From positions 1 to 26,031 of the IMG/VR virus record IMGVR_UViG_3300032605_000122: a stretch of 26,031 bases of DNA; one strand, 5' to 3'. The stretch comes from a virus. The position numbers and the translations under genes were made by a program. Below the pieces are notes generated by a model. It ran no database searches, was not told the origin of the DNA, and saw only the letters and a list, made by a program, of their open reading frames with translations. The number at the start of each line of letters is the position of its first letter. Positions within the stretch are counted from its first letter, which is position 1. Positions 6,525-24,575 of this stretch are shown here, one piece after another.

Positions 6525-7268
6525 TCAGTTGTCCATGAGGATGGTCCAGAAATCGGACCCGTGCTTCTCCAGGTAGCCGCGGGGGAGTTTGCAGTAGCCC
6601 CGGCGGCCCAGGGAGTCCCGGCAGCCCCACCGGCTGCCCCAGCTGTTGAGGACCACGTCGTGGTCCGGGGCGTAGCCCGCGAGCAGCATGCAGTGCATGC
6701 CCACCTTGGTCTCCAGCGCCCGGGGCATGGGGACCAGCCCGGTCTCGGAGACCTGGTCGGACTCGAAGGCGGCGAACACCGGCACGCCGATGACCACCGG
6801 CCGGCCCAGGAAGATCGTGCTGTTGATCGACGCCCGGTCGGTCCCTACCCTGCAGTACTCCAGGGCGCGGTGGCGCAGGGCGTCCTGGTAGACCTCCGGG
6901 GGCGGGGGCTGGAGCAGGCGGTCGTAGCCCCAGGAGGACTCCAGCGCCGCCCCGCGGGTGGCCACGGCCTTGATGACGTCCCTGATCTGCCGTCCGCAGT
7001 CCCCGGTGTTGCCCTCCAGCACCCCGGCGTCCCAGTAGGGCTGGGAGCGGGAGAGGACCACGTCGGGCAGGTCGGAGTTGATCAGGTTGTAGCGGATGGC
7101 CGCAGTCACTCCGTGGGCCGTGCAGGTGCCGTAGGGGCCCTGGTCCATCGCGTCGGGCAGCCAGGGGGTCAGGTCGTGCGAGAGCGGCACTATGAGGGGG
7201 ACCTGCCTCGGTGAGAAGAGGTGGTCCCTGGGGTCGTCCTGGTCTCGAACGCATCCGTATCCGCGCAT
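6525..7268 (-). CDS. Papain-like (C1A) cysteine peptidase
   Basis: This 247-residue protein starts at ATG 7268, overlapping the stop of the upstream small lipoprotein gene by one base. It has the papain fold signature: oxyanion Gln (Q43) and catalytic Cys (C49) in DQGPYGTCTAHG; catalytic His (H192) in VGMHCMLLAGY; catalytic Asn (N208) in VVLNSWGSRWG, followed by the typical GRRGYCKLPRGYL strand (222-234). A long inhibitory propeptide and a signal sequence are both absent, so it would be active in the cytoplasm or carried on the virion. C1A enzymes occur sporadically in phages. Possible roles include virion protein processing, attack on host proteins, or help in lysis, as its neighbours suggest. 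The family call is firm; the role is inferred. Confidence 0.85.
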   Translation of the reverse strand: MRGYGCVRDQDDPRDHLFSPRQVPLIVPLSHDLTPWLPDAMDQGPYGTCTAHGVTAAIRYNLINSDLPDVVLSRSQPYWDAGVLEGNTGDCGRQIRDVIKAVATRGAALESSWGYDRLLQPPPPEVYQDALRHRALEYCRVGTDRASINSTIFLGRPVVIGVPVFAAFESDQVSETGLVPMPRALETKVGMHCMLLAGYAPDHDVVLNSWGSRWGCRDSLGRRGYCKLPRGYLEKHGSDFWTILMDN

Positions 7269-7659: not shown

Positions 7660-8118
7660 CTACTCAGGCCAGCGGGCCACTAAGACGTCGCCGATGAACT
7701 GGTGCTTCTCCCCCATGCGGCGGCTAGTCACCTCGGGCGGATTGCACCAGTTGTCGAAGGCTGCGGCCGCGCCCTCGTAGTCCCCGGCGTTGAGCGCGCG
7801 CAGGATCGAGCAGGGGCCGCCGTGGTCCCCGGCGCGGAGGGCCCACTCGCCGCAGTTGACGCTGAAGCTGACCAGGGCGTCGTACTGGTCCTGATTGAGC
7901 GGGACGGTCACGGACGCGTCCACGGCCGCCTCGAAGCGCCGGACGTCTTCCTCGAAGGAGGCGTCCACCTGGTCGTTGGTCCAGAAGAGACCCAGGTGGA
8001 CCTCTGGGCCGGTGTGGCCCACGCCGATGGTGGGGCGGCCGCGGCTGTCGAGGTACGCCTCGTTCCGGCGGTCCTCCCTGAGCTCTATGAGGGTCCGGCC
8101 GCGCGGGCTGGTCCGCAT
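7660..8118 (-). CDS. GH24 endolysin (T4 lysozyme family muramidase)
   Basis: This 152-residue enzyme would hydrolyse the MurNAc-GlcNAc bond of peptidoglycan. The start is ATG 8118, overlapping the upstream stop by one base. The active-site segment reads ELREDRRNEAYLDSRGRPTI then GVGHT, with E15, D24 and T30 at exactly the spacing of E11, D20 and T26 in T4 lysozyme. Later come PLNQDQYDALVSFSVNCG (about 94-111) and WCNPPEVTSRRMGE near the C-terminus, typical for the family. There is no signal or SAR sequence, so access to the wall should depend on the adjacent holin. Confidence 0.93.
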   Translation of the reverse strand: MRTSPRGRTLIELREDRRNEAYLDSRGRPTIGVGHTGPEVHLGLFWTNDQVDASFEEDVRRFEAAVDASVTVPLNQDQYDALVSFSVNCGEWALRAGDHGGPCSILRALNAGDYEGAAAAFDNWCNPPEVTSRRMGEKHQFIGDVLVARWPE

Positions 8119-12225: not shown

Positions 12226-13311
12226 TCAATTCGTGTTCACGATGAACTGGTACTGGAAAGGGAGCTCGAGCGCGCCGGCCTCCACCGCCGCCTTGAAGAT
12301 CGGGATGTAGGGCGACGTCGGCAGCGCGATGGACGTGGTGTTGAGCTCGTTGAAGGCCGAGGTGTTGAAGGCCCCCGTGTTGAAGGTGGCCCCCGACTGC
12401 GCGAAGCGGCGCGTCGTCTGCAGGTTGATGTCTATCTGATTGCCCGCGCCGAAGGTCACGGACACCTGGTAGGTCTGGTCCGTCTGGCCCGGGCCGCCGT
12501 CGGTGCCGGTGAGGAACCTCTGGACGCGGCGCTTGAGCCATCGGACGTCGAAGGTACGGCCGTCCCCGCGCCACAGGTGCCAGGTGAGGACGCGCTTGAA
12601 CACGTCGTCCGAGGTGACGTAGAAGCTGGCCGGCCCGAGCAGCTTGAAGTCGTTGAACGGGATGGTGTTGAACGCGGCGGTGTTGAAGGGGCCCAGCATC
12701 TTGGACAGGCCGGCCGGCAGCACCGGGCGCTGGATGCCGTAGATGCCGGCCGCCACCCAGTCCAGCAGCTTGCCGGTGATCAGAGGACCTGTGTAGACGG
12801 GCAGGGAGATGTTGGCGAACCAGCCGATGTACGACTGGGCCATCTGGTTGTAGGCGTCCACGAACGCCTGGAGGTCCTCGTCGTCGTTGTACTGCTGGTA
12901 GAGGTAGCTGGGCAGGCCGCCAGTGACCGTGGTGGGGCCGGAGGGCGGGAAGCTGCCCGCGGCCGGCGGGACGTACCCCGGCGGGGGCTGCACCACGACC
13001 CCCGCCACGCGGTGGCCGGCGGAGGCCGCGTTGATGGAAACGCCCAGACCCGCGTAGTTGTCCGGTATCCTGAAGCGACCGCCGGGCTGCACCATGACGC
13101 AGGTCCCGGTCTGCCCCAGGACCGCGGGGTTCACGCAGTCCACGTAGAGGGCCTCCGCCGCGGGCAGCCCCTGGGAGGCCGCCGTGGCCGGGTTGACCAC
13201 GTAGCCTCCCAGGCAGGGGCCGTAGGCCACCGTTACCGGGCGACCCCCCGTGGTGACCACGGAGTTGACCAGGGGCCAGACCTTGGTCGGGGCGGTGACG
13301 AGCCTGACCAC
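12226..13311 (-). CDS. Tail protein in the gpI position (baseplate/fibre connector)
   Basis: This 361-residue protein starts at GTG 13311, overlapping the J-like gene's TAG by one base. Residues 20-108 form a beta domain homologous to the 99-aa neighbour encoded at 10556-10855. A Pro-rich linker (PPPGYVPP... about 109-127) follows. The main part begins with LPSYLYQQYNDDEDLQAFVD and AYNQMAQSYIGWFANISLPV, then GKLLDWVAAGIYGIQRPVLP, a pattern seen in tail proteins of other contractile phages. Two phenylalanine-centred pentad repeats occur: GPFNTAAFNTIPFND (208-222) and ATFNTGAFNTSAFNEL (308-323). Its place directly after the J-like gene and before the collar fibre corresponds to P2 gpI, but sequence similarity to gpI is not evident. 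Confidence 0.6.
   Translation of the reverse strand: MVRLVTAPTKVWPLVNSVVTTGGRPVTVAYGPCLGGYVVNPATAASQGLPAAEALYVDCVNPAVLGQTGTCVMVQPGGRFRIPDNYAGLGVSINAASAGHRVAGVVVQPPPGYVPPAAGSFPPSGPTTVTGGLPSYLYQQYNDDEDLQAFVDAYNQMAQSYIGWFANISLPVYTGPLITGKLLDWVAAGIYGIQRPVLPAGLSKMLGPFNTAAFNTIPFNDFKLLGPASFYVTSDDVFKRVLTWHLWRGDGRTFDVRWLKRRVQRFLTGTDGGPGQTDQTYQVSVTFGAGNQIDINLQTTRRFAQSGATFNTGAFNTSAFNELNTTSIALPTSPYIPIFKAAVEAGALELPFQYQFIVNTN
12343..12390 (-). repeat. 15-base coding repeats (pentad array 2 of the gpI-position gene)
   Basis: Tandem 15-base units encode F-N-T/E-x-x pentads (residues 308-323 of the gpI-position protein). On the plus strand the core GTGTTGAAGG recurs twice, and a diverged unit starts CGTTGAAGG. 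Confidence 0.75.
12646..12690 (-). repeat. 15-base coding repeats (pentad array 1 of the gpI-position gene)
   Basis: Three tandem 15-base units encode PFNTA-AFNTI-PFND (residues 209-222). The plus-strand core GGTGTTGAA is shared with the arrays at 12343-12390 and 24336-24386. Confidence 0.75.
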
Positions 13312-14987
13312 TATCCCTGCACCACATTGATGCCGGTCGCCGCCGCCGTGAAGTAGGACAGCGGGTCGCCCACGATGATCTCGGTGCCTGCGTCGGGCGG
13401 GGTGCCCACGCCGTCTATGGAGACCGAGAACACCAGCCTGGTCAGCAGGTAGGGAGCCAGGATGCTCTCTATGGAGGCCTGGAATACTGCGTTCATCTCC
13501 AGGAGGTTGAGCGGCTGGCCGGTCGGCACGCTGTTGACGTAGTCCGCCAGCGCGGGAGCCGCGGCCTGGGCCACCGCCGTGGTGCTGACGAAGTTCGGCG
13601 AGGAGGTGTTCCAGACCACCGTCATGGTAACGTTCTGCGGCGGCGGGCTCACGTAGGGGATCTGGTAGGTGTCCGGGTAGTCCGTGATGGTGACCAGGAC
13701 GTTGCGCAGGTTGGGGGTGATTACCCCGCCGCTGACCCAGTCCGAGAGGCCCGAGGTGTCGTAGTTGGCCGTTCCCGCCAGCACCTGTCCAAACGTCGCG
13801 GCGGGGGAGGTCAGGGTGGTGGTCTGGGCCGCCAAGATGGTGGTGCCGGAGGTGCCTGCGAGGGCCGTGTAGTTCCCGTTGTAGCCGGCGGGGGAGGCCC
13901 CCGAGACGGTGAAGGATGAGCCCGGCGTGATGCCGTGCGGGGTCGCCGTGGTCCCCGTGATTCGACCGCCCGCGGTGCTGGCCCAGGTCAGGTTGGACAG
14001 GTTGATGGCGGGGAAGGCCGTGCCTAGGGAGAACGAGGTCTCCGTCGGCACCGCCAGGACCACGAAGTTTCCGCTGTACCCGCTGGGGGTGGCGCCCGTG
14101 ATCTTGACCGCCTGCCCCGGGGAAAAGAGGTGGTTGATGTTGGTGGTCACCACGCCGGGGTTGGCCTTGGTGACGCCGATGACCTCCAGCGTGGAGCCCA
14201 CCAGGTTGGCGATGTCGGGCACCGCCTGGTAGATGGCGTAGGCCACCTGGTAGGGGTCCCCACCACCGCACACGATCGTCCACTTGCCGGTGGACTGGTC
14301 CGCCACCGCCGAGACCAGGCGCGTCTGCACGTTGGGCACGTTGCCGAGCAGGGTCTTCAGGTAGGAGAGCATCCCCTGGGAGGCCGCCAGCTGGGCCTGG
14401 AGCACGCGGGCGCGGTAGGAGGTCTCTGTCTCGGCCCCGGTGCCGGGGGTGCCGGGCACGCGGTTGGTGAAGGTCAGCGGGAAGCCGCTGGGGACGGAGG
14501 TGACCCGCTGGCTGACCGTGCCGGCCGGGACGGACCAGGTGCCCCCCTGAGTGGCCAGCGCGAACAGCTGCTGGCTCTCTCCGTCCGAGCCGATGACGCC
14601 GCCGTCCACCAGCGCGTACTGGAAGGTGCCGTCCGAGACCAGGAAGCCCTTGCCCAGGACGAAGCCAGGGTTGCCCGTGAAGGTCACCAGCACGCTGGTG
14701 TTGCTGCCCAGGCCGATAGGCACCCCCGTCTGCTGCCCCACCTGGGCCAGGACGAAGGCGTTGGCACCCACGGGGCTGATGCTGTTGATCAGCTCCACCA
14801 GGCCCTGGTTGAGCAGGATCAGCGCGCCGGTGTCCGTGGAGGCGATGTCCTCCGTCAGGGTGCCCGGCAGGTTGAGCGTGGCCTTGGGGTTGATCTTGGC
14901 GACCAGCGTGAGCAGCGCTTGCAGCAGGTCCGCCGGGGGCGTGGGGGCCAGGCCCGCGGGGCCCAGTACGACGGGGAGGTCGGTCAT
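13311..14987 (-). CDS. Baseplate J-like protein with two inserted beta modules
   Basis: This 558-residue protein starts at ATG 14987, overlapping the previous stop as ATGA. It is recognised as a baseplate J family (gpJ/gp6-like wedge) protein by an N-terminal helical part (DLLQALLTLVAKINP, GALILLNQGLVELINSISP), the GANAFVLAQVGQQTGVPIGL segment (about 74-93), GTGAETETSYRARVLQAQLA (182-201), a helical SQGMLSYLKTLLGNVPNVQ and the late ITDYPDTYQIPYVSPPPQNV motif (434-453). Family members form the ring of the baseplate wedge. Two modules of about 60-75 residues (about 269-330 and 331-405), each with H-G/L...G and GYNGN/GYSGN, sit in a loop between the core and that late motif, making it longer than a minimal J protein. 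Confidence 0.9.
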   Translation of the reverse strand: MTDLPVVLGPAGLAPTPPADLLQALLTLVAKINPKATLNLPGTLTEDIASTDTGALILLNQGLVELINSISPVGANAFVLAQVGQQTGVPIGLGSNTSVLVTFTGNPGFVLGKGFLVSDGTFQYALVDGGVIGSDGESQQLFALATQGGTWSVPAGTVSQRVTSVPSGFPLTFTNRVPGTPGTGAETETSYRARVLQAQLAASQGMLSYLKTLLGNVPNVQTRLVSAVADQSTGKWTIVCGGGDPYQVAYAIYQAVPDIANLVGSTLEVIGVTKANPGVVTTNINHLFSPGQAVKITGATPSGYSGNFVVLAVPTETSFSLGTAFPAINLSNLTWASTAGGRITGTTATPHGITPGSSFTVSGASPAGYNGNYTALAGTSGTTILAAQTTTLTSPAATFGQVLAGTANYDTSGLSDWVSGGVITPNLRNVLVTITDYPDTYQIPYVSPPPQNVTMTVVWNTSSPNFVSTTAVAQAAAPALADYVNSVPTGQPLNLLEMNAVFQASIESILAPYLLTRLVFSVSIDGVGTPPDAGTEIIVGDPLSYFTAAATGINVVQG

Positions 14988-17101: not shown

Positions 17102-17593
17102 CTACGGCGAGACCTCGAACTGCCTCGTGGGATCGCGGTAGACCAGGGTGCTCGTCTGGAAGTAGCCACCCGCCAGGTCGAGGTCCCAGCTCAGGGTGCC
17201 CAGCGCCGCGGAGGGGCCGGGGTCTCCGGCCAGCGGGTAGGAGAGGGTGCTGGGCCCCGTGATCAGGCAGGGGAACGTCCCGTTGTAGGCGGCGGGGGAG
17301 CAGTCCCGGACCGTCAGCTCGATAGTCTGGCCCACCGCGTAGCCGTGCGGCTGGGCGGTCACCACGCTGGCCGCCCCGGTGGCCCACGAGAGCCCCTGGA
17401 TGGCCACGCCGGCCGGCGAGCCTACCAGGGAGCGGTAGAACACCATGGTCCCGTTGAGTGCGAACAGGGCCAGGTACCATCGCTGCCCGAACAGGAGGTA
17501 GGGCACTATCGCGGTGTAGGTGTTCCCGTCCAGGGTCGGCTGGAACTGGAAGTTGCTCTGTGCCGGGGGCTCGAAGTTGAAGTAGGTGGTCAT
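17102..17593 (-). CDS. Baseplate plug-like protein with inserted beta module
   Basis: This 163-residue protein starts at ATG 17593, overlapping the preceding stop as ATGA. N-terminal PPAQSNFQFQPTLDGNTYTA and then LLFGQRWYLALFALNGTMVF (about 33-52) fit the small baseplate plug proteins (DUF6983-like), in which a beta barrel contains a W-Y/F-L-x-L...DG core. Their usual length is near 100 residues. Here an extra module of about 70 residues (66-135) with SWATGAASVVTAQPHGYAVG, AYNGTFPCLITGPSTLSYPL and GDPGPS intervenes before the final GGYFQTSTLVYRDPTRQFEV. The module is of the same type as those in the sheath and J-like proteins. It would lie near the hub in the baseplate centre. Confidence 0.7.
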   Translation of the reverse strand: MTTYFNFEPPAQSNFQFQPTLDGNTYTAIVPYLLFGQRWYLALFALNGTMVFYRSLVGSPAGVAIQGLSWATGAASVVTAQPHGYAVGQTIELTVRDCSPAAYNGTFPCLITGPSTLSYPLAGDPGPSAALGTLSWDLDLAGGYFQTSTLVYRDPTRQFEVSP

Positions 17594-20186: not shown

Positions 20187-20983
20187 CTACCCTGTCAGGG
20201 TCCGCCGGAGGTTCTCCACGGAGCGTATCAGCTCTATGGTCGTCCGCTGGCGGAAGAGGTGGGGACTGGGGTAGGCCCAGTCCCTGAACTGACCGAAGTA
20301 CTGCTCCCAGCCCGGCCCGGCGGCCCAGGCTAGACTAGCACTGACGACAGTGGGGTGTCCGAGCTCTCTTTCGTAGTCTCGGCCGGCGTCGACGTCGGCA
20401 AGGAAGCTGCGAATTCCGTAGCAGTCGATGACACGATTTGCGCGCTGTAGACGCGCATCATCGGGAATACGTACTGCTTCTGCTCCTTCCTGGTCTGCAA
20501 CCACGAGACCGCAGTAAAAAAAGCGGCGTTGCTCATCACCTCCTTGTACTCCTCGGGGGTGATGACCTCCTGGCGCAGGGCCTCGGCGACGGGCATGGGC
20601 TGCCAGCCCCTCTGCGGGTCGAGGGCTATGATGGAGGTCAGGCGCTCGATCTCGTTGATCAGGCCCTTCTGGACCTCCTCCAGGGTGCCCTCGCGCTGGG
20701 CCAGCTGGCGGATTATCAGCAGCGCCACGCGGCCGGCCATGCCGACCCCGAAGTTCTTGCCGTAGACGGTGGTGATGACCTCCGCCAGGAGGAGGGCGTA
20801 CCTCTCGTACGTCTCCTCCAGAATCGGGACCGAGTGCGCGTACAGCTTCCGCATGACGGGCTCCATCACTGGGCGCCCGTTTTCGAGGACGGGCTTGCCG
20901 TCCTCGAGCCTCGGCCTGACCTGGTCGGTCTCCTGCTCGATCTCGAGCACCAGGTTCATCTTCTTGTTGATCTTCGCTGCCAT
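20187..20983 (-). CDS. Frameshifted tail assembly chaperone (gpGT-like fusion, -1 frameshift)
   Basis: Reading from ATG 20983 and slipping back one base on the heptamer at 20516-20522 gives a fusion of about 265 residues: 156 residues of the upstream protein, then YCGL and the downstream frame (VVADQEGAEAVRIPDDARLQ and onward) to TAG 20187-20189. The downstream frame is exactly -1 relative to the upstream one, and its only own start candidate is an internal GTG at 20504 without a ribosome binding site. In tailed phages the short and long chaperone forms coat the tape measure and recruit tube subunits. The location between tube and tape measure is canonical. Confidence 0.88.
20330..20983 (-). 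CDS. Tail assembly chaperone (gpG-like, non-shifted product)
   Basis: This 217-residue, mostly helical protein starts at ATG 20983 behind AGGAGA. It has KINKKMNLVLEIEQETDQVR, ILEETYERYALLLAEVITTV, RVALLIIRQLAQREGTLEEV and QGW-like LDPQRGWQPMPVAEALRQEV regions. The slippery codons encode F155-F156. The unshifted C-terminal tail (TAVSWLQTRKEQKQYVFPMM and onward) ends in a Ser/Thr-rich stretch. It would act as the abundant chaperone form during tail assembly in the cytoplasm and not be part of the finished virion. The overlap with the shifted frame runs over about 187 bases and is less GC-rich: 31 of 60 in 20461-20520. Confidence 0.85.
   Translation of the reverse strand: MAAKINKKMNLVLEIEQETDQVRPRLEDGKPVLENGRPVMEPVMRKLYAHSVPILEETYERYALLLAEVITTVYGKNFGVGMAGRVALLIIRQLAQREGTLEEVQKGLINEIERLTSIIALDPQRGWQPMPVAEALRQEVITPEEYKEVMSNAAFFTAVSWLQTRKEQKQYVFPMMRVYSAQIVSSTATEFAASLPTSTPAETTKESSDTPLSSVLV
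20516..20522 (-). other. Programmed -1 ribosomal frameshift site (slippery T TTT TTT)
   Basis: On the minus strand the upstream gene reads GCT TTT TTT ACT, so T TTT TTT lies in the X-XXY-YYZ register at codons 154-156. Seven identical bases in a high-GC gene stand out. Slipping back one base enters the open downstream frame as TAC TGC GGT CTC GTG. Confidence 0.87.
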
Positions 20984-21491: not shown

Positions 21492-23150
21492 TTAGCCTCC
21501 CTGGACCACGAACTGGTTGACGTTGAGGTTGACGATGATCTTGTCGAACCCGCGCAGCGGCGTCATGACGACCGAGAGGCCGCCGTAGAGGCCGGTCTTG
21601 TAGTTGCTCGGGTTGAGCGTGAGGTAGGAGATGAACGGCTGGGCGTTGACCACCGCCTGACCGTCGTAGACCCCTGCCTCCAGGTTGGCCAGGAACTGCG
21701 TCTGCGGCAGCCCGACCTGGTTGGGCGAGCCCAGGATGAGGCCGTAGGAGATGCCGTTGGCCAGCGTCCGCGCCGCCACGCCCGCCAGGCGGTTGATGCC
21801 GTCCTGGTTGTAGTAGAGCGGGTTGACCGGGTTGTTGCTGCCGTTGATCACGGCGTTGGCCAGGTCGAGGTTGAGGTTGATGGCCGCCCAGTCGATGGAG
21901 TACCAGAAGTTGAACGGGTTGCCGTCCAGGTTGTTGCCGCCGAAGAGGATGTCGAAGGAAACGCCCCCCTGGCTCCCGGTCCCCGCGTAGCTCCAGTTGG
22001 CCGTCGTGATGGCAGAGATGGTCGGTCCCATGCCGCGGGTCTGGAACGGCGTCACGCCGCTGAGCTCGCTGTACTCCAGCGGGGTCACCTTGTTGGTGCT
22101 GGAGGGCGCGTAGTTGAGCGTGGTGTAGAATACCGAGGCCAGGGAGTACTCCGTGGCCGGCACGCCCGCGCTGGCGTACAGGCTGGCCACCAGCGTGCCC
22201 TCTACCGAGATGGCCCCCGGGTCCGCCGCCACGTTGGCGATCAGCGTCATCCCGGTGGTGCCGGGCTGCGCGATGAACTGGCCGTTGTAGCCCGCGGGCG
22301 TGCAGCCCGTGACCGTGAACAGCTGCCCCGGGGCCACGCCGTGGTTCGTGGTGGTGGTCAGGGTGATCTGGCCGCCCGAGTAGGAGGCGTTGGTGAGGGT
22401 GTTCTGGCCCCAGGTGCCCGTCAGCGGGTTCTCGATCATCCCGAAGACGCACTTCATCGCCGAGTTGTACCTCTTGTAGTTCTGGAGGTTCGACGTGACG
22501 AAGAAGTAGGTCTTGGCGGTGTTGCTCTCGAACCCAGCCAGGAAGGCCAGGAAGGAGGGCACGCCGTCCCAGTCGCGCGGGACCAGGTAGGAGTAGAAGA
22601 ACTGGTCGGAGTTGGCGATGAACGAGGCCAGCGCCGTCACGCCGGCCGCCGGCTCCCCCGCGCCGAGCTCCAGCACGTAGACCGGGTTCTGGGAGCCCTG
22701 GGCGAAGTAGCTGCCCACCATCGCCTGGAGGTCGCCCACGCCGCGGGCGGTGTAGGTGCCCGGGGTGGTGGCCGGGGAGGTCCCCGGGTTGGTCGACAGG
22801 TAGTAGGTGAAGGTGCTCGCCCCGGTGGAGATGGCGTTGACCGTGCCGTTGTAGGTGGTGGGGACGGCCCCGGCCACCGTGGTCACGAACGCCTCTCCCA
22901 CCGCCACGCCGTGGGCGGCAGTGGCGGTGGCGGTGACCTGCCCGCCGTAGGCCGAGGACCAGGTCAGGGAGGTCAGGGTCAGCGGGGCGGGCAGCAGCGG
23001 CGTGAGGTCGCCCGCCTGCGTCAGGAGCGCGTCGTTCTGCGCCCCCAGGACGGTGCCCCCCTGGCTGAGGAGCGCCCCCGTCTTCTGCAGCGTGCTCGGC
23101 GTCGGGGGCGTCGAGATGCTGACGTTGACTACTACGATGGGGTTCGCCAT
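21492..23150 (-). CDS. Tail sheath protein with two inserted beta modules
   Basis: This 552-residue protein starts at ATG 23150 behind AGGAGG. The core matches Bcep781-like (DUF3383-like) sheaths: MANPIVVVNVSISTPPTPST, QKTGALLSQGG, AFFIANSDQ-like FIANSDQFFYSYLVPRDWDG, ESNTAKTYFFVTSNLQNYKR, ATEYSLASVFYTTLNYAPSS, KVTPLEYSELSGVTPF, QVGLPQTQFLANLEAGVYDG and a C-terminal DKIIVNLNVNQF strand. Two modules of about 70-75 residues (about 60-135 and 251-321), each with an HGVAxG core and a YNG turn, interrupt the core. Sheath subunits surround the tube and contract to drive it into the cell; the modules probably project outward. Confidence is high on context and sequence. Confidence 0.87.
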   Translation of the reverse strand: MANPIVVVNVSISTPPTPSTLQKTGALLSQGGTVLGAQNDALLTQAGDLTPLLPAPLTLTSLTWSSAYGGQVTATATAAHGVAVGEAFVTTVAGAVPTTYNGTVNAISTGASTFTYYLSTNPGTSPATTPGTYTARGVGDLQAMVGSYFAQGSQNPVYVLELGAGEPAAGVTALASFIANSDQFFYSYLVPRDWDGVPSFLAFLAGFESNTAKTYFFVTSNLQNYKRYNSAMKCVFGMIENPLTGTWGQNTLTNASYSGGQITLTTTTNHGVAPGQLFTVTGCTPAGYNGQFIAQPGTTGMTLIANVAADPGAISVEGTLVASLYASAGVPATEYSLASVFYTTLNYAPSSTNKVTPLEYSELSGVTPFQTRGMGPTISAITTANWSYAGTGSQGGVSFDILFGGNNLDGNPFNFWYSIDWAAINLNLDLANAVINGSNNPVNPLYYNQDGINRLAGVAARTLANGISYGLILGSPNQVGLPQTQFLANLEAGVYDGQAVVNAQPFISYLTLNPSNYKTGLYGGLSVVMTPLRGFDKIIVNLNVNQFVVQGG

Positions 23151-23510: not shown

Positions 23511-24575
23511 CTAGACTGACAGTTGTTGAACGTAGATTTCGTCGCCCTGCACCAGGCACTCTTCGATGACCTGGCGGGCGACGTTGCGGATGCTCTGCTG
23601 GTTGTAGCTGACCTGGAAGGTGATCCGCTTCTTCATGGCCAGGGTGAGCAGCTCGCTCTGGGCGGCCTTGACGTCGCGGACGGTCGGCGTGTTCATCAGG
23701 CCGAGCAGGCCCGTGTCCGTGCCGTAGGCTATGGCGGCGTCCTGGAAGGTCAGCGCCGCGTCGTTGGAGGCCCCGAAGAGCGTCACCCGGACGGTGTCCC
23801 GGGCCAGCTGGTAGTGCGATGCGGTCGGGCCCAGCGTGGGGACCGCCTGGATGACCTCCGTGTCCTCCTCGCCGATGTGGACCGCGCCGTAGGGAGGCGG
23901 CAGGTTCTGCGGCACCGCGAAGGAGGGGTACAGCGGGATGACCGGGAAGGGCAGCAGCACCGGGTAGGGCGGGGCGTAGGCGTTGATGGCCAGCCAGGCG
24001 GGCAGCGAGTTGGAGACCACCACCTGCCGCCCGTTGAAGTCCGCCGGGCTGTCTATCAGCTGGCTCTCCATCGTGGAGTAGACCGCGTCGCCCACGTAGT
24101 GCCAGAGCCCGGCCTGGCGGTAGAAGTTGGAGCGCGAAGAGAACGCGAAGCGGATGCGGTCGATCGTCGCGATGAAGAGGGTGTTGGGGCCCACTCGGTT
24201 GAGGCCCTGAACCTCCTGCTCAGAGGTGAAGGTCACGCGGTTGACCGCGTAGTTGGCCTCCTCGGTCTGGCTCATCCCGGTGGCGTAGTGCAGGGAGCCT
24301 CGGGCCTCCAGCGTGTTGTCCTCCACGCCCGCGGCGGCCGCGCCGTTGAAGGGGGCCGTGTTGAACGCCGCGGTGTTGAACGCCGCCCCCCGGACCAGCG
24401 CCGCGGGGGTCAGGAGGGGGGCGGCCACCCAGAACACGAAGCCGTCCACCGGCAGCACGAGTCGGTTGTACTGCTGGAAGACGACCGACTGGTTGGAGCT
24501 GATCGCCCTCTCGCCCTGGCGCAGGTCCGCGGCCAGGGGCGAGGCGGAGCCGATGGCCTCGTCGAGAGTGGGCAA
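23511..24575 (-). CDS. Large structural protein with FNT pentad repeats
   Basis: This 354-residue protein starts at TTG 24575, with a strong AAGGAGGAG eight bases upstream. It has SNQSVVFQQYNRLVLPVDGF, VFWVAAPLLTP (residues 32-57), then the array AAFNTAAFNTAPFNGAA (64-80), a beta-rich middle (GSLHYATGMSQTEEANYAVN, RVTFTSEQEVQGLNRVGPNT, FIATIDRIRFAFSSRSNFYR) and the C-terminal ALTFQDAAIAYGTDTGLLGL and KKRITFQVSYNQQSIRNVAR. Long proteins with the same N-terminal and C-terminal segments occur at this place in Bcep781-like phages. It is probably a tail or neck structural protein; its exact role is unknown to me. Confidence 0.7.
   Translation of the reverse strand: MPTLDEAIGSASPLAADLRQGERAISSNQSVVFQQYNRLVLPVDGFVFWVAAPLLTPAALVRGAAFNTAAFNTAPFNGAAAAGVEDNTLEARGSLHYATGMSQTEEANYAVNRVTFTSEQEVQGLNRVGPNTLFIATIDRIRFAFSSRSNFYRQAGLWHYVGDAVYSTMESQLIDSPADFNGRQVVVSNSLPAWLAINAYAPPYPVLLPFPVIPLYPSFAVPQNLPPPYGAVHIGEEDTEVIQAVPTLGPTASHYQLARDTVRVTLFGASNDAALTFQDAAIAYGTDTGLLGLMNTPTVRDVKAAQSELLTLAMKKRITFQVSYNQQSIRNVARQVIEECLVQGDEIYVQQLSV
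24336..24386 (-). repeat. 15-base coding repeats (FNT pentads)
   Basis: Tandem 15-base units encode AFNTA-AFNTA-PFNGA (residues 65-79 of the structural protein). The plus-strand core GTGTTGAACGCCGC occurs twice in tandem and also, as diverged copies, in the gpI-position gene more than 11 kb away. Confidence 0.8.

Follow-up and report, generated by a model that had tools for sequence, protein, structure and literature searches.

A gene on the minus strand of the window (the whole 26,031-nucleotide stretch of viral DNA analyzed here) very likely encodes a predicted tail assembly chaperone in two forms, G and GT, the longer of which would arise by a −1 ribosomal slip on the heptamer T_TTT_TTT. 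The preliminary description had proposed a programmed −1 frameshift joining the two frames, and this proposal was supported by the relatives, in which the heptamer in its register, the −1 protein, and the dual coding are all conserved. The use of −1 slippage to make two tail helper proteins from one gene is a well-known trick; the predicted frameshift described here is of an ordinary kind and has good support, and many related phages share it although their public annotations do not mark it. The predicted GT fusion consists of G residues 1 to 156 followed by the 109 residues encoded in the −1 frame, giving a protein of 265 aa. The features of the locus are listed in Table 1.

Table 1. Features of the G/GT locus and its neighbors in the window
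Feature	Start	End	Strand	Evidence
Gene G, 0 frame, 217 aa, predicted tail assembly chaperone, short product	20330	20983	−	phrog_11810 (unknown function), E 2.2e-31
T extension, −1 frame, 109 codons + stop TAG (20189–20187)	20187	20515	−	tblastn, dN/dS, PHROG match
Dual-coded region, 61 sense codons of G + stop, 0 and −1 frames	20330	20515	−	constraint on both frames in relatives
Slippery heptamer T_TTT_TTT	20516	20522	−	sequence; homologous site kept in relatives
AAGGAGGTGAT, near-perfect anti-SD match, candidate 5′ stimulator	20535	20545	−	anti-SD hybrid scan
Predicted tail tube, upstream neighbor	21030	21488	−	position after sheath; phrog_6566 (unknown function)
Tail sheath	21492	23150	−	phrog_205, E 5.9e-27
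Predicted tape measure, C-terminal SLT transglycosylase domain	18375	20180	−	domain + gene order

In the minus-strand sequence, the heptamer occupies codons 154 to 156 of the open reading frame 20983–20330, confirming the register that had been assigned to it: the third base of codon 154 (GCT) is the first T of the run, and codons 155 and 156 contribute the remaining six. The strand reads AAC GCC GCT TTT TTT ACT GCG GTC TCG TGG around the run, and the first shifted codon is TAC (20516–20514), so that the junction reads FF-YCGL. The predicted tryptic peptides of the window phage are EVMSNAAFFYCGLVVADQEGAEAVR for the junction in GT and EVMSNAAFFTAVSWLQTR for unshifted G. Among all 26,031 bases, the heptamer was the only run of at least six A/T bases, with 0.10 T7 runs expected per dinucleotide shuffle (both strands), and it was the only in-register XXXYYYZ sequence with Y = A or T among the 4206 codons of the 15 minus-strand CDSs. 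Phe is encoded in these CDSs by 145 TTC versus 6 TTT codons, two of the rare TTT codons being those of the heptamer. When the G gene was recoded synonymously with the codon usage of the window preserved, T7 was regenerated at the site in 0 of 20,000 re-draws. The T7 run in the window is not a product of chance.

As had been reported, the −1 frame runs open through 109 codons as far as 20187, and it is also open for 158 codons 5′ of the heptamer. This openness had been offered as support for the frameshift; it is real, but it carries little weight in such a G+C-rich window because the −1 frame across the overlap stayed open in 74% of the synonymous re-draws as well. The earlier count of 31 G+C among the 60 bases at 20461–20520, below that of the neighboring sequence, was exact, and the overlap as a whole has a G+C content of 58% (108/187) versus 64% upstream and 68% downstream.

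Homologues of G were found in Klebsiella, Yersinia, Shewanella, Actinobacillus, E. coli, and Pantoea phages and in about 80 IMG/VR contigs. G was approximately 25 to 34% identical to "hypothetical" proteins of the Klebsiella phages Chronis, RothC, and RothD and of the Yersinia vB_YenM phages, as well as of Shewanella QDWS, Actinobacillus pPE4, E. coli Rac-SA53, and Pantoea PdC23; in these phages, its relatives always lie 5′ of a transglycosylase gene or of the gene in the tape measure position. In tblastn searches, the −1 protein independently matched the −1 frame of most of these phages, where it is unannotated, with the match starting at the heptamer, from query residue 1. The homologous Phe-Phe pair is encoded by T_TTT_TTT in the same register, with A as the next base, in all of the phage records examined; therefore, the shifted protein reads FFY. 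A frameshift annotation at the locus was absent from the phage records examined, those of the Felixviridae (RothD and PdC23) included. Likewise, the word "frameshift" does not appear in the main text of the article in which Felixviridae was proposed for RothD, and the main text of the Yersinia phage paper does not mention a frameshift in these phages. Two other IMG/VR contigs, of 63.7 and 37.4 kb (L010 and L011), match the window with 100% identity across the compared 6.65 kb, indicating that the genome of this virus is larger than the window. Neither contig points to a host, and a search of genome contigs for the window protein yielded no relatives.

The 80 IMG/VR loci and the phage records yielded 54 distinct −1 proteins, that of the window included. 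Although the search for this first set demanded Phe-Phe, it did not demand TTT, and N_TTT_TTT was found at the aligned Phe-Phe in all 54 distinct loci (48 T7, 5 G_TTT_TTT, and 1 C_TTT_TTT), each of which has also kept the −1 frame. Every Phe codon at the slip site was TTT (108/108), whereas elsewhere in the same ORFs of this set TTT and TTC occurred 100 and 230 times, respectively. A second search, seeded with the T protein alone and unbiased for the heptamer, yielded 34 further distinct loci, and a slippery heptamer was present in 30 of them (27 T7, 2 G_TTT_TTT, and 1 T_TTT_TTG). The remaining four (L103, L104, L105, and L181) have T_TTT only, reading TAT TTT or TCT TTT with the first Phe replaced by Tyr or Ser, and both frames are otherwise kept. 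Even phages with only about 30% protein identity to the window have conserved the dual coding, the −1 protein, and the heptamer in its register.

A T run of this kind could also act during transcription: RNA polymerase would add a base on the run, and ordinary translation of the altered message would give the same GT. One added U indeed results in the same frame, and the homopolymer comprises 7 T's in the window and 8 in many relatives. The runs on which bacterial transcriptional slippage has been described in a review, however, comprise 9 A or T (PMC5009743), more than in the window. The run consists of only six T's in six of the 54 relatives and of only four in another four loci, all of which nevertheless keep the frame arrangement; moreover, the run everywhere stays in the register that a ribosomal slip site has. 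We consider transcriptional slippage improbable, and a −1 slip of the ribosome remains the preferred explanation.

The coding status of both frames was assessed in 45 equal-length relatives, in which the dN/dS values, being pairwise sums over related sequences, describe a pattern rather than formal tests. In the stretch past the G stop that is read in the −1 frame only, dN/dS was 0.17 with no stops, as compared with 1.9 and 1.6 in the other frames. Within the overlap, the values were 0.55 for the 0 frame and 0.58 for the −1 frame, neither of which contained stops, whereas the third frame displayed a dN/dS of 1.23 and about three stops per sequence. The share of variable fourfold sites was 0.57–0.60 upstream of the slip and dropped within the overlap, to 0.35 in one half and 0.16 in the other. 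The unshifted C terminus of G is conserved, and the distance from the slip to the 0-frame stop is 61 to 64 codons in most loci (62 codons, or 186 bases, in the window), farther than in P2 or lambda. Since the slip lies this far before the stop, G and GT differ in their C termini, and GT is not simply G with a short addition.

Independent initiation at GTG 20504, giving a separate T protein, would be another way into the −1 frame. This codon is in frame, is the first ATG/GTG/TTG of the −1 frame in the window, and was the start chosen by a mechanical ORF finder. However, the window sequence has no Shine–Dalgarno sequence at a usable distance from it, the strong one at 20545–20535 lying about 30 bases upstream. 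Most relatives have no start at this position, and conservation reaches back beyond the GTG as far as the heptamer (T alignment residues Phe2, Tyr3, and Leu6). In addition, 23 of the 54 distinct loci have no ATG, GTG, or TTG in the whole −1 frame, and hence internal initiation cannot explain the family; many relatives have a −1-frame stop 2 to 9 codons 5′ of the heptamer. These results, which uphold the earlier view that the overlapping frame has no credible start, make initiation at GTG 20504 very unlikely. A chance T run combined with a spurious open frame in G+C-rich DNA, although compatible with the frequent openness of the −1 frame in the re-draws, has a negligible probability, as the heptamer never reappeared in them, both the heptamer and the T protein are conserved in distant phages, and the conservation of the −1 protein refutes it.

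We also searched for elements that might stimulate the slip. On the 5′ side, AAGGAGGTGAT lies 12 bases from the heptamer, and its predicted hybrid with the anti-SD sequence (−18.7 kcal/mol) was the strongest in the 12.7 kb scanned (12,700 positions), the next being −15.5 kcal/mol. This match was not conserved in the relatives compared, and it appeared in 42% of the synonymous re-draws because the encoded peptide is K-E-V-M. On these two grounds, we did not favor a selected dnaX-like SD stimulator at this position; the match may play an active role, but it is not evidence of design. RNA folding 3′ of the heptamer, which the preliminary description had suggested as a check, gave a divided result: stretches of 36 nt (just after the heptamer) and 116 nt folded modestly better than shuffles (z = −1.7 and −2.0, respectively), whereas those of 76 and 111 nt did not. 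The consensus fold of the relatives on the 3′ side was weak, and no Rfam match was found at the locus. A downstream hairpin or conserved 3′ structure was likewise not favored, as neither the folds nor the consensus of the relatives supported it consistently.

The G/T gene sits between the tube and tape measure genes, as had been claimed, although these two neighbors were themselves assigned largely by position. The T stop (20187) precedes the predicted tape measure start (20180) by seven bases. The order sheath, tube, G/GT, and tape measure is common to the relatives and matches that of P2 and Mu; the place of the tape measure is often annotated as "lytic transglycosylase" or as "tape measure protein" in the relatives. 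The predicted tape measure of the window is short (601 aa). The identity of G and GT as tail chaperones was weaker than had been stated: comparison with P2 E, lambda G, and Mu gp41 gave no match, neither did the Pfam and NCBIfam chaperone models, and the predicted structures of G and T (pLDDT 84 and 73, respectively) had no significant PDB match. Links to known chaperones by sequence or by fold were sought, and none was found. The predicted chaperone role rests on gene order and architecture, since there is no profile or fold match. Tail assembly chaperones diverge strongly in sequence, and for this reason the missing similarity to known chaperones is not decisive.

The arrangement resembles that of E and E+E′ in phage P2, which likewise has a contractile tail, places the pair between tube (FII) and tape measure (T), and ends its −1 frame at the tape measure start. 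The P2 shift occurs on T_TTT_TTG, 21 bases before the end of E, whereas the slip in the window lies 186 bases before the end of G, and G of the window has no sequence similarity to P2 E. In lambda, too, one gene between the major tail protein and the tape measure gives two products, G and GT, by a −1 shift; its tail, however, is noncontractile, the annotated start of its T frame lies 19 bases short of the end of G, and its G protein has no detectable similarity to that of the window. The lambda mechanism has been reviewed, with a molar ratio of 30:1 (PMC5009743). SEA-PHAGES frameshifts average 26 bases (PMC10885494), as compared with an overlap of 186 bases in the window. The E. coli dnaX cassette (SD, slippery heptamer, and stem-loop) shares with the window an SD-like sequence 5′ of a homopolymeric heptamer, but the SD of the window follows from the encoded peptide and is missing from the relatives compared, and no conserved stem-loop was found; the dnaX frameshift, moreover, shortens its product (PMC5009743). 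The proposed Felixviridae (RothD, PdC23, and relatives) possess a similar tail module, which has homologous G, T, tube-position, and tape measure genes in the same order with the same heptamer, although the window is only about 30% identical to it in G and T and has a G+C content of 67%.

From the site, its register and conservation, the coding of both frames, and the lack of a start codon in some relatives, we infer that the shift occurs and that it occurs by ribosomal slippage. Most ribosomes would read G through to its 217 residues, and a minority would move back by one base while tRNA-Phe is on T_TTT_TTT and continue in the −1 frame to give GT. By analogy with lambda gpG/gpGT, the shared 156 residues may coat the tape measure protein, the 109-residue T domain may recruit tail tube subunits, and the efficiency of the slip may set the G:GT ratio. 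G would keep its own conserved C terminus, the two products differing by a C-terminal swap. Against this reading stand the weak 3′ structure, the nonconserved SD, the four T_TTT relatives, in which the slip site is poor, and the lack of similarity to known chaperones. A more tentative possibility, which we regard as somewhat improbable, is that this lineage exchanges a conserved G C terminus of about 61 residues for a T extension of about 109 residues across about 190 bases, and that four environmental members slip on a lone T_TTT, in the P-site, with no tandem heptamer. On that reading, the unshifted product may have a second role of its own.

With the frameshift recognized, phrog_11810 and phrog_14324, both of unknown function and the latter matched by the T extension including FF, would become parts of one gene and gain a predicted function. 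Gene models would also be corrected in many temperate phages, among them the recently proposed, gut-associated Felixviridae, in which the T protein is not annotated as part of the gene. The natural series of T7, G/C_TTT_TTT, T_TTT_TTG, and T_TTT at one homologous site also offers a direct test of the requirement for the heptamer.

Several observations on other minus-strand genes of the window were made. The tail sheath (21492–23150) and the baseplate wedge protein (13311–14987) each contain two copies of a repeat of about 60 residues (..HGxxPGxxFTVxGxxPxGYNG..), and a looser version of it seemingly occurs in the ORF at 17102–17593. The sheath and wedge proteins both match phrog_9998, and the repeat is probably an inserted surface domain common to virion proteins. 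Short FNTxxFNTxx pentapeptide-like repeats were present in two predicted structural proteins encoded far apart (12226–13500 and 23511–24575). Finally, the protein encoded at 6525–7268, near a phage lysozyme gene at 7660–8118, showed a weak match to papain-family cysteine proteases (Pfam E 0.0075, below the cut-off).
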